A stretch of DNA of 34,236 bases. It comes from Tannerella sp. GTDB lineage: Bacteria; Bacteroidota; Bacteroidia; Bacteroidales; Tannerellaceae. Under the pieces are notes generated by a model, which worked only from the letters and a program-made list of their open reading frames with translations, searched no databases and had not been told where the DNA came from. Shown here one piece after another: positions 3,720-21,445 of this stretch (its first letter is position 1; each line of letters starts with the position of its first letter). Where the stretch lies: contig JAIRYD010000167.1 of the NCBI GenBank assembly GCA_031267935.1, positions 1-34,236 on the forward strand, written 5' to 3'. The translations under genes were made by a program, and so were the position numbers.

Positions 3720-5405
3720 TTATGTGTTTCGACACAGGTTGTCCTGCATCCGTTTTTCCGCCTTTTCCAGTGCAATGCCGTAAGCGCGGAAGTAGAATTT
3801 GATGAAATGCGACCATGTGGCTTTCGATGCCGTACGGAAACAGTTTTGCGCAACGGCATTTCTTTCCGTTTCGTTTTTCTGCATGAGCGCACGCAGGCAG
3901 GCGGATATGTCGCAGACCACATTATCATAATTGTCGTCCGTGCGATGAATCACGGCCACTCCTTCGCCGATGTCGTGTCCCGAGACGATGCTTTTCGCCC
4001 ACAGTCCGAATCCTGCCAGGTCGGTAGTGACGGTCGGTATGCCGAAGGCGATGCTTTCCATCGGCGTGTATCCCCACGGCTCGTAGTAGGAAGGAAAGAC
4101 CGTGCAGTCCATCCCCGGCAGCAAGTCGTAGTACGTCATGTCGAAAATGCCGTCCTTTCCGTCCGCATAGCAGGGCACGAAGATGATTTTCAGTTTTTCG
4201 GACGCGGCATTGGTAAATCCCGCATGGCGGATAAAATTCATCACGCGGTCTTCGTCCATGCCGTGCAGCCAGTGCGTAAGGAAAGGGGTCTGCATCGGTT
4301 CCGTGATGTCGATGTCTTTGTCCAGCGCTTCTTTCAGGTCGGCTCTTGGCGCGTAGATCCAGGCGGGCACCATCACGAAGGCGACGGTTTCGCCCGTCCA
4401 CGTGTCGTCGTGTCGCAGGCGGTTCATCACGTCGATAAACACGTCGATACCCTTGTTTCGATATTCGTACCGTCCGCCGATCGAGACAAGAAAAGCGTCT
4501 TCGGACACGGCGCGTCCCAGCAGTTTTCCGGCGACGCGTCGCAGTGCATGGCGAGCCTGACGGCGTTTTGCTTCGTACGGTTCGCCGGCGGGAGGCACAA
4601 AATCCGGTTCGAAGCCGTTGGGTGTCACCATGTCCGGTTCCTTTTCGAGCAGGCGGCGACATTCCAGCGCCGTGATCTCGCTCACGGTCGTGAAGCAGTC
4701 GGCATGATGCGCCGTCTGTTTTTCGAGCGAGTGTTTTGCTTCCATGTTGAGTTCCGCCGCCATCTGGTCGCCGTTGTATCCGTCCAGATAGTCGTGCAGC
4801 GGTTTGCCGTTGCCGGCGATGGACCGGCCGATGGAAGTGGCGTGCGTCGTGAAAACGGTGGCTACGGCAGGCAGTTGCTGCTGCAGATACAGCGCGCCCA
4901 TGCCCGTCGTCCATTCGTGGAAGTGGGCGACGACGTGTTTGTCTTCCAGATGATGATACTGATAAAAATGACGAATGACCTTTGCCGCGGCGTATGCAAA
5001 AATACATGCTTCGTCGTAATCGCCGTATGCGCACGAAGAATCCACGCCGAAAGATTCCCAAATGGAATAGTAAAGCATGTCGCGCCCGGCAAAAAACGGC
5101 TTGAAGTCGATCAGTACGACGAGCGGTTCTCCGCAGACAGTCCATCGTCCGACGCGGACGTGAAGCGCTTCGTCCTTCCCGGCGGCTTTGCGCCAGGCGG
5201 AAAGCAGTTTGCGGTCTTCGCTGAAACCGGTGTCCGGCGTGCCGGTATCGGGGCCGATAAATATCAGATTGTTTTTAAATTGCTGTTGCAGCGTACGCGC
5301 CATCGTGGAGAGTACCGTGTAGATCCCTCCCACTTTGTGACAAACTTCCCAGCTGCTTTCGAAAATATAGTCAGGCTTGATCATCTCGGATTTCATTTTT
5401 TTCAT
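3720..5405 (-). CDS. Glycogen synthase, GT3 family (eukaryote-like type)
   Basis: The 561-aa cytoplasmic glycosyltransferase should extend alpha-1,4-glucan from a nucleotide-glucose donor. Its N-terminus 'ESSWEVCHKVGGIYTVLSTM' and the motif 'YEPWGYTPMESIAFGIPTV' near residue 442 are hallmarks of GT3, the family of yeast and animal glycogen synthases, rather than the GT5 GlgA of E. coli. It is shorter than the eukaryotic enzymes and lacks their long phosphorylated tails. The donor (UDP- or ADP-glucose) cannot be told from sequence. The ATG overlaps the TGA of the upstream nitrilase gene (ATGA), which implies translational coupling. The phosphorylase follows after 33 bp. No branching or debranching enzyme is present in this window. 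Confidence 0.93.
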   Translation of the reverse strand: MKKMKSEMIKPDYIFESSWEVCHKVGGIYTVLSTMARTLQQQFKNNLIFIGPDTGTPDTGFSEDRKLLSAWRKAAGKDEALHVRVGRWTVCGEPLVVLIDFKPFFAGRDMLYYSIWESFGVDSSCAYGDYDEACIFAYAAAKVIRHFYQYHHLEDKHVVAHFHEWTTGMGALYLQQQLPAVATVFTTHATSIGRSIAGNGKPLHDYLDGYNGDQMAAELNMEAKHSLEKQTAHHADCFTTVSEITALECRRLLEKEPDMVTPNGFEPDFVPPAGEPYEAKRRQARHALRRVAGKLLGRAVSEDAFLVSIGGRYEYRNKGIDVFIDVMNRLRHDDTWTGETVAFVMVPAWIYAPRADLKEALDKDIDITEPMQTPFLTHWLHGMDEDRVMNFIRHAGFTNAASEKLKIIFVPCYADGKDGIFDMTYYDLLPGMDCTVFPSYYEPWGYTPMESIAFGIPTVTTDLAGFGLWAKSIVSGHDIGEGVAVIHRTDDNYDNVVCDISACLRALMQKNETERNAVAQNCFRTASKATWSHFIKFYFRAYGIALEKAEKRMQDNLCRNT

Positions 5406-15994: not shown

Positions 15995-16481
15995 TCCGGA
16001 ACCTGAGTTTTGGATAAGCAAACCTCATTTTTCCCGATTCAAACAAAAACAACCCCGGCAGTTCGGGTTTTCGATGCCGCAAACCTGTTTTCGGGCTTAA
16101 GAAAACTGGTTTCGGGCTTAAGAAAACTATTTTCGGGCCTAAGAAAACTATTTTCGGGCCTAAGAAAACTGGTTTCGGGCCTAAGAAAACTATTTTCGGG
16201 CCTAAGAAAACTGGTTTCGGGCTTAAGAAACTTATTTTCGGGCCTAAGAAAACTGGTTTCGGGCATCGCAAACCTGTTTTCGGAGAGCGGTATCGCGGTT
16301 TTTGCAATATCCGCCTGTGGAATATTGTGCTCCCGTGCACGTGCCGTGCATCAGCCGCAGCCGGCCGGAGACCCCGTCGGCGTCGGCGTCGGGGTACGGG
16401 CTGATGTGCAAATATTTCGTGTCTTTCATCCGCCACGCTTATCCAAAACTCAGGTTTCTCAGGTCGAACTCAGGTTCCGGA
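15995..16481. repeat. Inverted-repeat-bounded 487-bp non-coding element
   Basis: The left end reads tccggaacctgag then ttttggataagc. The right end, read on the opposite strand, has the same two blocks with a 20-bp insert between them that itself contains two more cctgag copies. The inner 20 bp (aacctgagttttggataagc at 16000-16019 versus 16437-16456) is a perfect inverted repeat. Between the arms lies the 21-bp tandem array and about 155 bp of unique sequence. No credible gene, transposase or clear target-site duplication is visible. It could be a small non-autonomous mobile element, a large cruciform, or a structured 3' region of the MATE transcript, which would run into it. This element accounts for most of the 15818-16513 gap. 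Confidence 0.6.
16072..16280. repeat. 21-bp tandem repeat array, 8 core copies plus 2 variant caps
   Basis: Eight units of exactly 21 bp run from 16092 to 16259, each beginning cgggcYtaagaaaact and ending in ggttt or atttt. The two endings form the order A B B A B A B A, with unit 7 slightly altered. One degenerate unit on each side (16072-16091 and 16260-16280) shares the variant cgcaaacctgtttt, so the array is capped at both ends by the same form. There are no unique spacers, so it is not CRISPR. Because 21 is a multiple of three, several frames stay open and create heptapeptide ORFs in the track. Substitutions do not favour any one frame, which argues for non-coding DNA. Confidence 0.9.
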
Positions 16482-17856: not shown

Positions 17857-18207
17857 CTACTTCAGCCGGTTGGTCGCCGTATCGGGAAAAACGATGGTCG
17901 GACGAAACGTCCGGGCTTCTTCATAATCGATTCGGGCATACGAGATGATGATGACGACATCGCCCGGCTGCACGCGCCGCGCCGCCGCGCCGTTCAGGCA
18001 GATCGTGCCCGAACCGCGCTCGCCCCTGATGACGTACGTTTCGAAACGCTCGCCGTTGTTGTTGTTCAGCACGTGCACCTTCTCGTATTCAATCAGATCG
18101 GCGGCTTCCATCAGATCGGCGTCGATCGTGATGCTTCCGATATAGTTCAGGTTCGCATCCGTTACCGTGACGCGATGAATTTTCGATTTCAGGATTTCGA
18201 TATACAT
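17857..18207 (-). CDS. panD: Aspartate 1-decarboxylase precursor
   Basis: The 116-aa proenzyme makes beta-alanine from aspartate for pantothenate synthesis. The self-cleavage site Gly24-Ser25 is present in '[14 protein letters not shown]'; cleavage turns Ser25 into the catalytic pyruvoyl group. Lys9 in '[10 protein letters not shown]' and the segment '[20 protein letters not shown]' complete the active site. The length is slightly under the E. coli enzyme. It starts 13 bp after panC and is followed after 17 bp by the MATE gene, forming an operon. Beta-alanine from this enzyme is the substrate of PanC. Confidence 0.97.
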
Positions 18208-18220
18208 TCCTTTGTTGTAT

Positions 18221-19102
18221 TTAATTTACAATCCCCGCCTCCACGTACCGCACGTTGTCTATCAACCGCACTTCGCCGCAAAAGACGGCGATACACCCGA
18301 TGATGTCGTCCGATTCGTTCCAGTCGCGTACGGACAGAAGCGTTTTCGTATCTGCAATTTCGTAATATTCCACGCGCAGCAGAGGCGTCCTGTTCAGCGT
18401 GTCCGTCACCAGACCGACTACCTCCTTTACGCTTTTTTCAGGTACAAAGGTACGACTTTCTTTTAATGTAACGGCAATCGCCGGCGCAATTCGACGCTGT
18501 TCGGGCGTCAGGCGCACGTTGCGGCTGCTCATCGCCAGTCCGTCCGCCTCGCGAAGTATCGGACAGGGCACGATACGCACCGGCAGCGACAACTGCCGCG
18601 TCATTTCACGGATAACGGCAATCTGCTGGAAGTCTTTCTCCCCGAAATACGCGCTGTGCGGCTCGACGATACGAAACAGTCTACTCACGACCTGCGCCAC
18701 GCCGTTGAAATGTCCCGGCCGGAAAGCCCCTTCCATCACCTGCGCCACCGTTCCGAGGTCGAACACGCGCCCGTCCGGTTCGGGATACATCTCCCCCACC
18801 GGCGGCATGAACACGCAGTCGCAGCCGGCCTCTTCGAGCAGCCGGCAATCTTTTTCCGGCGTCCGCGGATACGCCGCCAGGTCGCGCACGTCATTGAACT
18901 GCGTCGGATTCACAAAAATGCTGGCCACGCACACGTCGTTTTCCGCCACGCACGCCTTCACCAGGCTCAGATGCCCGTCGTGCAACGCGCCCATCGTCGG
19001 GACGAAGCCGATCCGCCTGCCCGCCTGTCGCTCCGGAGCGAGATACGCCCTCAAGTCATTTATCGTATATGCTACTTTCATCATACCGTATTTTTTATCC
19101 AT
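18221..19102 (-). CDS. panC: Pantothenate synthetase (pantoate-beta-alanine ligase)
   Basis: The enzyme joins pantoate and beta-alanine using ATP in the cytoplasm. Seen motifs: '[17 protein letters not shown]' (ATP-binding HxGH), '[10 protein letters not shown]', 'YFGEKDFQQ' and '[10 protein letters not shown]' (KMSKS-like). The ORF is 293 aa, but family members usually start right before 'MKVAYTIND', so Met7 or Met8 (19084 or 19081) may be the true start, giving about 286 aa. It is the first gene of panC-panD-MATE and is divergent from the degenerate GT5 gene. A loose -7 element lies about 35 bp upstream. Confidence 0.96.
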
Positions 19103-19208: not shown

Positions 19209-19216
19209 TACATTTG
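19209..19216 (+). promoter_or_regulatory. -7 element of the GT5-like / DUF4270 pair
   Basis: TACATTTG is an exact TAnnTTTG match 28 bp before the ATG at 19245, implying a leader of about 20 nt. It supports 19245, rather than the upstream ATG of the long ORF, as the real start of the next gene. Confidence 0.55.
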
Positions 19217-19244: not shown

Positions 19245-20063
19245 ATGGATGCTAAAAAGATTTTATTCATAACTCAGGAAATCTCCCCCTACTCACCGGA
19301 CTCCGAAATTGCCATTATATGCCGGGATCTCCCACACGGCATACAGGATCATGGAAGAGAAATCAGAACTTTCATGCCCAAATACGGCTGTATCAACGAG
19401 CGACGCAACCAGTTGCACGAAGTCATCCGGCTCTCGGGCATGAACCTGATTATTGACGATACCGACCATCCACTCATCATCAAGGTGGCCTCGATACAGT
19501 CGGCGCGCATGCAGGTTTACTTTATCGACAACGAAGACTTCTTCCAGCGCAAAGCCATGCTTGCGGACGACGAAGGCCGCGAATTTGAAGACAATGACGA
19601 GCGCGCCATCTTCTTCGTGCGGGGCGTCTTCGAAACCATCAAGAAACTGCGCTGGATGCCCGACGTGATCCACTGCCACGGCTGGCTCACCGCCCTCACG
19701 CCGCTATATCTCAAACGGATGTATATCGACGAATCGCGCCTTGTAGACACGAAAGTCGTCTACTCCGTCTACGACGACGCTTTCAGCAACCCGCTCAGGG
19801 ACGAGTTTTCCAGCAAACTGATACAGGACGGCGCCACGAAAGACGATACGCACCTGCTCAAAATGCCCGACCACCGGTCGCTGACAAAACTGGCCGTCCA
19901 GTTCTCCGACGCCATTATTCAGGGCAGTCCGCAAATAGACGGCGAAATACAGGAGTTCATCACGCAGTCGGGGAAAACATTCCTCCCCTACCATTCTTCT
20001 ACAGATAATTACATCCACCAATATAACGACCTTTACGATTTGCTCATTCATTCAAAAGAATAA
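19245..20063 (+). CDS. Degenerate N-terminal-only GT5 glycogen/starch synthase homologue
   Basis: From the ATG at 19245 the product is 272 aa; the 554-aa track ORF is an artefact that runs back through panC. It matches the N-terminal Rossmann half of GT5 GlgA proteins ('KKILFITQEISPYSPDSE', 'TFMPKYG', 'WMPDVIHCHGWLTALTPLYL'). Two key parts are missing: the KTGGL sugar-nucleotide motif expected after 'SPYSP' is replaced by 'DSEIAIICRDLP', and the entire C-terminal GT-B domain is absent, since the ORF ends at about half the normal length without a visible frameshift. Glycogen synthase activity is therefore unlikely and a binding or regulatory role is possible (inference). The protein looks intact and constrained, not a decaying pseudogene. 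DUF4270 follows after 5 bp. Confidence 0.85.
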   Translation: MDAKKILFITQEISPYSPDSEIAIICRDLPHGIQDHGREIRTFMPKYGCINERRNQLHEVIRLSGMNLIIDDTDHPLIIKVASIQSARMQVYFIDNEDFFQRKAMLADDEGREFEDNDERAIFFVRGVFETIKKLRWMPDVIHCHGWLTALTPLYLKRMYIDESRLVDTKVVYSVYDDAFSNPLRDEFSSKLIQDGATKDDTHLLKMPDHRSLTKLAVQFSDAIIQGSPQIDGEIQEFITQSGKTFLPYHSSTDNYIHQYNDLYDLLIHSKE

Positions 20064-20068
20064 AAATC

Positions 20069-21445
20069 ATGAATATCAAACAGTATATGGCGGCCATTGC
20101 CGGCCTGGGATACCTTTTGCTGACAAGCTGCAACGACGAGATAAATCCGGTGGGCACCGGCATCCTGCCCGACGAAGACCACATCACGGTCTACGCGGAT
20201 ACGTTCCCGATGATGGCCTCGACCGTCCAGTACGACTCGCTCTACGCCCGAAGCCATTCCGGCTTCCTCGGCGAATTTTACGACCCGCTCTACGGCCGGC
20301 TCAAATCCGACTACGTCTGCCAGTTCTACTGCAAGGACGGGTTCCGCTTCGCCCACACCCCCGACAACGGCCTGATCGACTCCATCTCGCTGGTACTTGT
20401 CTACTATGAGTGGCAAGGCGACCCGGCCATCCCTATGCAGGTCTCGATCTATCCCGTCACGGAGCAACTGCCGAAAAACTACTACACCAACGTCGATCCG
20501 ACGCCCTTCTGCGACCGCAATCCGATACTGTCGCAGGCCTACGCGGCGCAGAGCGGGATCCTCGTCGATACGGCAGATACGGAATCGGGGCGGATGCAAT
20601 ACTTCCGGCTTCCCCTCGAATGGGGACAAAATATATACAACGAAACGGTAAACAATCCCTCTTCGTTCGACAGCCAGGAATCATTCAACCGCTTCTTACC
20701 CGGCTTATACATCACCACCGACTACGGCAGCGGGAACATGCTCTACATTTCCAGCACGCAACTGCTGATCAACTATCACTACACGGAAACAGCCAGCACG
20801 GGCGAAGACTCCGTCATCACTGCCTGGGAGATATTCAACGTCAGCAAAGACATCATCCAGCTCAACCGTTTCGAAAGCACGTACACGGAACCGCTGCTCG
20901 CGGACACCGACTACACGTACCTCAAGACGCCCGCCGGCATTTTCACGCGCATCGTCGTCCCCGCCGCCGAAATCAGCCGCGTCATCGAAAAGCGCATCAT
21001 CAACTACGTGTCGCTAAACCTCAGATACATGCCGCAAGAAAAATGGGAATATGCCCTGACGCCGCCATCCTACATGCTGCTGATTCCCGAAGACTCGATC
21101 CACACGTTCTTCGAAAACAGGAACATCGAGAACAATATCACCTCGTATCTTTCGGACTATTCCAGTTCGTCTTCTCCGGCCGGATATAATGAAGCGGGGC
21201 GCGTCTATCCCTTTCCCAACATCGCGAACCTGCTGAACTACCATATCGCCTACAACCCGGACGAAGACCTGCGGCTGCTGGCCGTGCCCGTAAGTCGCAA
21301 CATCGCCACCTCGTCGAGCTACTACTCCGGCTCCACCTTCTACACAACGTCGCTCAGCCATTATCTGGCGCCCTCGGGACTGAAAATCCGCAAGGACGGA
21401 AACAACATGAAGGTAGTCATCATTTCGAGCCTGTTAAACAATTAA
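20069..21445 (+). CDS. DUF4270 family lipoprotein
   Basis: The 458-aa product has a lipoprotein signal peptide with lipobox 'LLLTSC' (Cys at about residue 21), so it should be lipid-anchored, probably to the outer membrane. The start of the mature protein, 'NDEINPVGTGILPDEDHITVY', and alternating short hydrophobic/polar segments suggest a beta-rich fold; I recognise this as the Bacteroidetes DUF4270 family, whose role is not established. It begins 5 bp after the degenerate GT5 gene and is very likely co-transcribed with it. No terminator is obvious before the dnaN promoter. Confidence 0.85.
   Translation: MNIKQYMAAIAGLGYLLLTSCNDEINPVGTGILPDEDHITVYADTFPMMASTVQYDSLYARSHSGFLGEFYDPLYGRLKSDYVCQFYCKDGFRFAHTPDNGLIDSISLVLVYYEWQGDPAIPMQVSIYPVTEQLPKNYYTNVDPTPFCDRNPILSQAYAAQSGILVDTADTESGRMQYFRLPLEWGQNIYNETVNNPSSFDSQESFNRFLPGLYITTDYGSGNMLYISSTQLLINYHYTETASTGEDSVITAWEIFNVSKDIIQLNRFESTYTEPLLADTDYTYLKTPAGIFTRIVVPAAEISRVIEKRIINYVSLNLRYMPQEKWEYALTPPSYMLLIPEDSIHTFFENRNIENNITSYLSDYSSSSSPAGYNEAGRVYPFPNIANLLNYHIAYNPDEDLRLLAVPVSRNIATSSSYYSGSTFYTTSLSHYLAPSGLKIRKDGNNMKVVIISSLLNN

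Follow-up and report, generated by a model that had tools for sequence, protein, structure and literature searches.

Among the systems closest to the gene described here, a fragment of the GT5 synthase GlgA that is conserved in Bacteroidetes is already in print, in one sentence of a review (PMC11046441; Chem Rev 2024). The roles of the GlgA residues discussed below are taken from PMC6210743. The BAM complex of Bacteroidota includes BamA, BamD, BamG and BamH (PMC12611786, PMC12578637), with BamH corresponding to BT4306 in PMC12578637 and to Fjoh_0823 in PMC12611786. The GT5 fragment is not mentioned in two published studies of purified Bacteroidota BAM complexes. In the openly accessible literature, neither a paper linking it to BAM nor essentiality data naming the gene were found.

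A half-length GT5 gene in Tannerella sp.

The window, i.e., the whole stretch of 34,236 nt that was analyzed, carries a gene for a truncated GT5-type protein of 272 amino acids at positions 19245 to 20063 (+ strand). The reading frame is open in the 5' direction as far as 18399, antisense to panC, and the ATG at 19245 was chosen as start since Met1 is near-invariant across the family. The product, here called half-enzyme, consists of an N-terminal Rossmann domain and a kept C-terminal helix. In Pfam, PF08323 (N-terminal GT5 domain) was the sole domain, covering residues 5–238 with 172 bits (cut-off 22.7), and no C-terminal GT-B domain of the Glycos_transf_1 type was matched in the 272-aa protein. 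With the NCBIfam glgA subfamily model TIGR02095, the half-enzyme scored 110.7 bits, below the cut-off of 328; its best NCBIfam match was NF010698, with 155 bits for residues 4–178 (cut-off 754). The AlphaFold2 model (pLDDT 85, pTM 0.88) was most similar to structures of GT5 synthases (6gne, E 4e-14; 1rzu, 7e-13; 2qzs, 4e-12), and the TM-score was about 0.7 by query length but fell to about 0.4 by target length. Thus, as the initial annotation had stated, the N-terminal GT5 fold is kept. An export signal was not evident in the half-enzyme, which is presumably cytosolic.

The initial annotation had also regarded the full C-terminal domain as lacking. This holds for the second Rossmann domain: about 225 residues, i.e., the entire domain, are absent between the N-domain and the C-terminal helix. 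It does not appear to hold for the last helix (residues 256–269 in the model; 20010 to 20051, + strand), which can be aligned to that of full-length GlgA. The short forms end with a helix of the pattern 'Y..LY..L' that resembles the final helix of full-length GlgA. In a profile–profile comparison of the C-termini of short and full-length forms, a score of 22.4 was obtained, while the maximum of 100 column shuffles was 11.7; the low hhalign probability (39%) is in line with the 23 columns compared. On this alignment, the case for homology of the two helices is good but not conclusive. Since the last helix was apparently retained, an internal deletion describes the protein better than the lack of a C-terminal domain.

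Gene order and a possible link to outer-membrane assembly

The gene following the half-enzyme, bamH (20069 to 21445, + strand; 458 aa), starts 5 nt past the stop codon of the GT5-like gene. It had been described initially as a coupled DUF4270 gene (PF14092, 296 bits). Its product carries the signal LLTSC followed by NDE. The score with the model NF053687 (BamH_bt) was 210.8 bits, below the cut-off of 670, and the protein matched chain G of the P. gingivalis BAM complex (PDB 9hjm_G, E 5e-64) as well as 9his_G (1e-30). The coupled gene product is BamH, a surface lipoprotein and core part of the outer-membrane assembly machine of Bacteroidota. An own promoter, as had been proposed, is borne out by the Bacteroidetes -7 motif TACATTTG at 19209 to 19216 (+ strand), 36 nt upstream of the ATG. 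In 93 of 94 loci, the 150 nt preceding the orthologue contained the motif TANNTTTG, as compared to a mean of 10.6 and a maximum of 20 after shuffling. The half-enzyme gene and bamH are probably co-transcribed from this promoter. In Flavobacterium johnsoniae, BAM depletion constructs were made with the fjoh_0824 promoter (PMC12611786); fjoh_0824 adjoins bamH (Fjoh_0823) and, by this gene order, presumably encodes the half-enzyme. Elsewhere in the window (16081–16283), a 21-bp unit is repeated in tandem 9.7 times, with 85% matches, beside a MATE transporter gene.

BamH directly followed the half-enzyme in 14 of 16 representatives of the class Bacteroidia (13 by Pfam, one by profile); in two class lineages (G002, G007), the genes were not adjacent. 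Since the Pfam model DUF4270 misses BamH outside the class, a separate profile (A3) was used there. In the sister classes, BamH-like genes were found downstream of the full-length or short GT5 gene in 42 and BamG-like genes in 38 of 46 loci, counts that are circular for the ten loci from which the profiles were built. Beside canonical GlgA paralogues, the profiles detected neither gene (0/11). The identity of sister-class BamG was obtained independently of the profiles (NF053685 in 10/10; PDB 9hiv_F and 9n2d_B), and that of BamH by one PDB match (9hjm_G, E 1.5e-12). A profile made from the sister-class genes alone recovered BamH in 8 of 14 class loci. The order of the GT5 gene and bamH is thus firm, and the association with bamHG is older than the truncation.

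Several of these loci carry further genes. The place between the GT5 gene and bamH is often taken by a gene for a GmhB-like HAD phosphatase of the heptose bisphosphate phosphatase type (e.g., L153:6487-7062, L162:6468-7055, L144:4243-4845), pointing to an envelope-sugar operon. Downstream of bamH, glmS is found in locus L118, the BamH of which scores above the NCBIfam cut-off. Two full-length GT5 genes (L159:3886-5352, L162:4989-6458) have RVSxL in place of KTGGL and are followed by the HAD gene, but bamH was not encountered in the stretch that was read.

Genes of one operon may be expressed together without acting together. The half-enzyme might have a cytoplasmic housekeeping or metabolic role unrelated to BAM, for example the sensing of a metabolite of sugar or CoA supply, with bamH only sharing a strong promoter. 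We regard this reading as a serious possibility, though held with less than even confidence. It is favored by panC (18221 to 19102, - strand), which lies next to panD (17857 to 18207, - strand) and is the divergent neighbor in 97 of 111 class loci, and by the two class lineages in which bamH is not adjacent. In addition, a vitamin B12 photo-affinity probe enriched BT_4307, the half-enzyme of B. thetaiotaomicron, in both screens of one study (PMC8941943, Table 1). As to B12 binding itself, trigger factor and other unlikely binders were enriched too, and BT_4307 was not followed up in that study.

The metabolic reading also draws on two strongly reduced genomes, G535 (1.2 Mb) and G318 (0.49 Mb), in one of which panC is still divergent. 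Both keep the half-enzyme (286 and 284 aa; G535:C5:1078557-1079366, loci L190 and L195; G318:C1:436930-437706, loci L193 and L196) together with a BamA-like gene. With the NCBIfam models for BamG and BamH_fj, no match was obtained in either genome; the BamH_fj model is weak across the class, but the BamG model gave strong matches in the four other genomes searched. Retention of the half-enzyme therefore does not depend on BamGH, and the notion of an accessory that depends on BamG and BamH is weakened; these two genomes are the main evidence against a tie to envelope assembly. On the other hand, panC was not recognized in the sister-class loci, whereas bamH was present there, and several classes share the adjacency of bamH, which canonical GlgA lacks. 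We consider the chances of an envelope role of the half-enzyme to be about even.

Loss of the active site and conservation of a subfamily block

In the alignment with GlgA, the site of the lost KTGGL..D donor/acceptor motif is occupied by YSPDSEI (residues 16–22; 19290 to 19310, + strand). The positions of KTGGL itself, the absence of which had been noted before, read PDSEI. KTGGL is one of several active-site elements lost. Neither Lys15 nor Gly18 was present in any of the 125 class sequences aligned. The motif CHGWL (residues 144–148; 19674 to 19688, + strand) has Gly where E. coli GlgA has Asp137; this exchange was found in 122/125 and that of His161 to Tyr in 118/125 class sequences. The residues Asn246, Arg300, Lys305 and Glu377 fall in the missing part of the protein. 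By comparison, 28 full-length relatives look active, since they kept Lys15 (26/28), Asp137 (24/28), His161 (25/28) and Glu377 (27/28). The short forms of the sister classes were intermediate (n = 18), with Lys15 in four, and Asp137 and His161 in six.

A half-length protein of this kind could in principle contribute one domain to a split glycosyltransferase, with a different protein providing the second domain, as in Alg13/Alg14. Splitting is known among GT-B enzymes, and the fold of the N-domain is intact. However, its catalytic residues are lost too. When five genomes were searched with a profile of the missing domain, only full-length frames of GT-B size (368–441 aa) and no short orphan were found. 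We consider a split enzyme very improbable.

Even less probable, and hardly tenable, is that the protein still acts as a glycogen synthase despite its unusually minimal fold. This reading agrees with the database annotation and with a paper in which storage of glycogen by B. thetaiotaomicron was proposed from BT_4307 (PMC10797578). It is opposed by the absence or replacement of all eight residues named above and by the lack of GlgC in Bacteroidetes according to the review PMC10395257. Moreover, the genome has a separate GT3 glycogen synthase (3720 to 5405, - strand; PF05693, 300 bits), which the initial annotation had regarded as able to supply synthase activity and which is likely the real synthase of this genome. 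Since Lys15, Gly18, Asp137 and His161 are replaced, synthase activity of the half-enzyme is very unlikely. With the fold kept, the catalytic residues lost and purifying selection acting on the gene, we are highly confident that it is a pseudo-glycosyltransferase. The label 'glycogen synthase', which the gene bears in almost all genomes of the class, is thus very unlikely to be right, as had been suspected, and it has already been used for biological inference. Besides the case of BT_4307, selection in Porphyromonas was interpreted via a 'glycogen synthase' gene that was not otherwise named and is possibly the half-enzyme (PMC10394638).

The most constrained part of the protein is a block at residues 51–100 (NERRNQLHEVIRL...IKVASI...MQVYFIDNEDFF; 19395 to 19544, + strand). 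Constraint centers on a subfamily motif outside the known catalytic residues. Within it, R53, H58, R62 and Q90 reached or approached 100% both in the short forms as a whole and in the full-length subfamily, i.e., the bamHG-linked relatives, but not in canonical GlgA. Since the block is common to the short forms and the full-length subfamily, it is older than the deletion and the best candidate for the retained function. The confidence of the AlphaFold2 model was lowest here (64–69). The protein offers a clear case in which the catalytic half was lost while an older, subfamily-specific patch stayed under the strongest selection.

Origin of the half-enzyme and its proposed role

The half-enzyme was found in 378 of 395 genomes of the class and in 337 of the 339 of good quality; 15 of the 17 genomes lacking it were outside the good-quality group. 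Protein searches returned hundreds of orthologues, the best 80 of which had 57–82% identity and lengths of 266–279 aa; across the short forms, length was conserved at 247–290 aa. In close pairs, dN/dS was 0.02–0.12 where computable. When a maximum-likelihood tree was built from 78 N-domain rows, a single clade (support 100/100) united 37 short forms, of which 20 came from the class and 17 from sister classes. This clade was nested within the full-length subfamily, apart from the canonical GlgA paralogues of the same genomes. Judged from the tree, the truncation is essentially a single ancient event common to the class and its sister classes. We would guess from sequence motifs that the short forms of the sister classes belong to Rhodothermia and some of the full-length ones to Chlorobia or Ignavibacteria types. 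One short form of the family f39 (L144) sat elsewhere in the tree, outside the 37-member clade, and a second f39 genome has a frame of about 290 aa as well, so that a second, independent shortening in f39 is likely. These shortened genes are L144:4842-5708 (genome G172) and L188 (genome G256), the L144 copy lying within a HAD-bamH-bamG operon. A decaying pseudogene or a recent truncation, as half length alone might suggest, is ruled out for practical purposes by dN/dS, conserved length, promoter motif, distribution and the ancient clade. The case that the initial annotation had named as evidence against itself, a fresh truncation alongside an intact gene in near relatives, does not apply.

An ancient inactive half-enzyme that is near-universal and usually stands in an operon with a BAM part suggests reuse for a new job. 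A GT5 synthase of the ADP-glucose type may have been present in the bamH-bamG operon already in the ancestor of Bacteroidota and its sister classes. An internal deletion would then have removed the donor-binding second domain before Bacteroidia split from the sister lineages with short forms, and the catalytic residues would have changed afterwards. Strong selection for binding or regulation at the NERRxxLHEVIRL block would have preserved the N-domain and the C-terminal helix, with transcription together with bamH from the promoter that precedes the half-enzyme. Most likely, the half-enzyme would couple a cytoplasmic signal, i.e., a glycan, a sugar nucleotide or a protein partner, to outer-membrane biogenesis. 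We give roughly even weight to this account as a whole, in which a cytosolic pseudo-glycosyltransferase is retained for a binding role and is probably connected with envelope assembly. More tentative, and short of even, is the wider proposal that a phylum-wide cytosolic pseudo-glycosyltransferase, which took its place in the operon from a catalytic GT5 ancestor, is an unrecognized factor of outer-membrane biogenesis through which BAM output is coupled to cytoplasmic carbohydrate status or to the handling of precursors. If the link to BAM is true, the half-enzyme is a concrete cytoplasmic candidate, and two BAM studies of 2025 left the gene directly upstream of bamH undiscussed.

The view taken in the initial annotation, of a repurposed, non-catalytic protein misannotated as GlgA, agrees with near-universal presence in the class, purifying selection and loss of the catalytic residues, and a non-catalytic binding role accordingly seems probable from such comparisons. 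That view had missed the identity of BamH, the age of the association, which precedes the truncation, the sharing of the event with the sister classes, and the kept C-terminal helix.

Compared with known systems, the half-enzyme shares with GlgA (GT5; PF08323, TIGR02095) the N-terminal Rossmann fold, the C-terminal helix and, being nested in the GT5 tree, common ancestry, but lacks the second Rossmann domain and the catalytic and ADP-glucose residues. The starch synthases of the PRK14098 type (NF010698) include, judged by motif, full-length relatives (L159, L162) that share the NDRKxRLHDVxRL block; the model spans 489 positions at full length, whereas the half-enzyme is far shorter. The Bacteroidetes GT5 fragment of PMC11046441 is almost certainly the same protein, described there without context, tree, residue analysis or function. 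With the Bacteroidota BAM complex, the half-enzyme is connected by bamH next to it and by bamG, which follows in the sister classes, but it is predicted to be cytosolic and is not a reported subunit. Like Alg13 and Alg14, it represents a GT-B half as a separate protein; unlike these, it has lost its catalytic residues and had no orphan second half in the five genomes searched.
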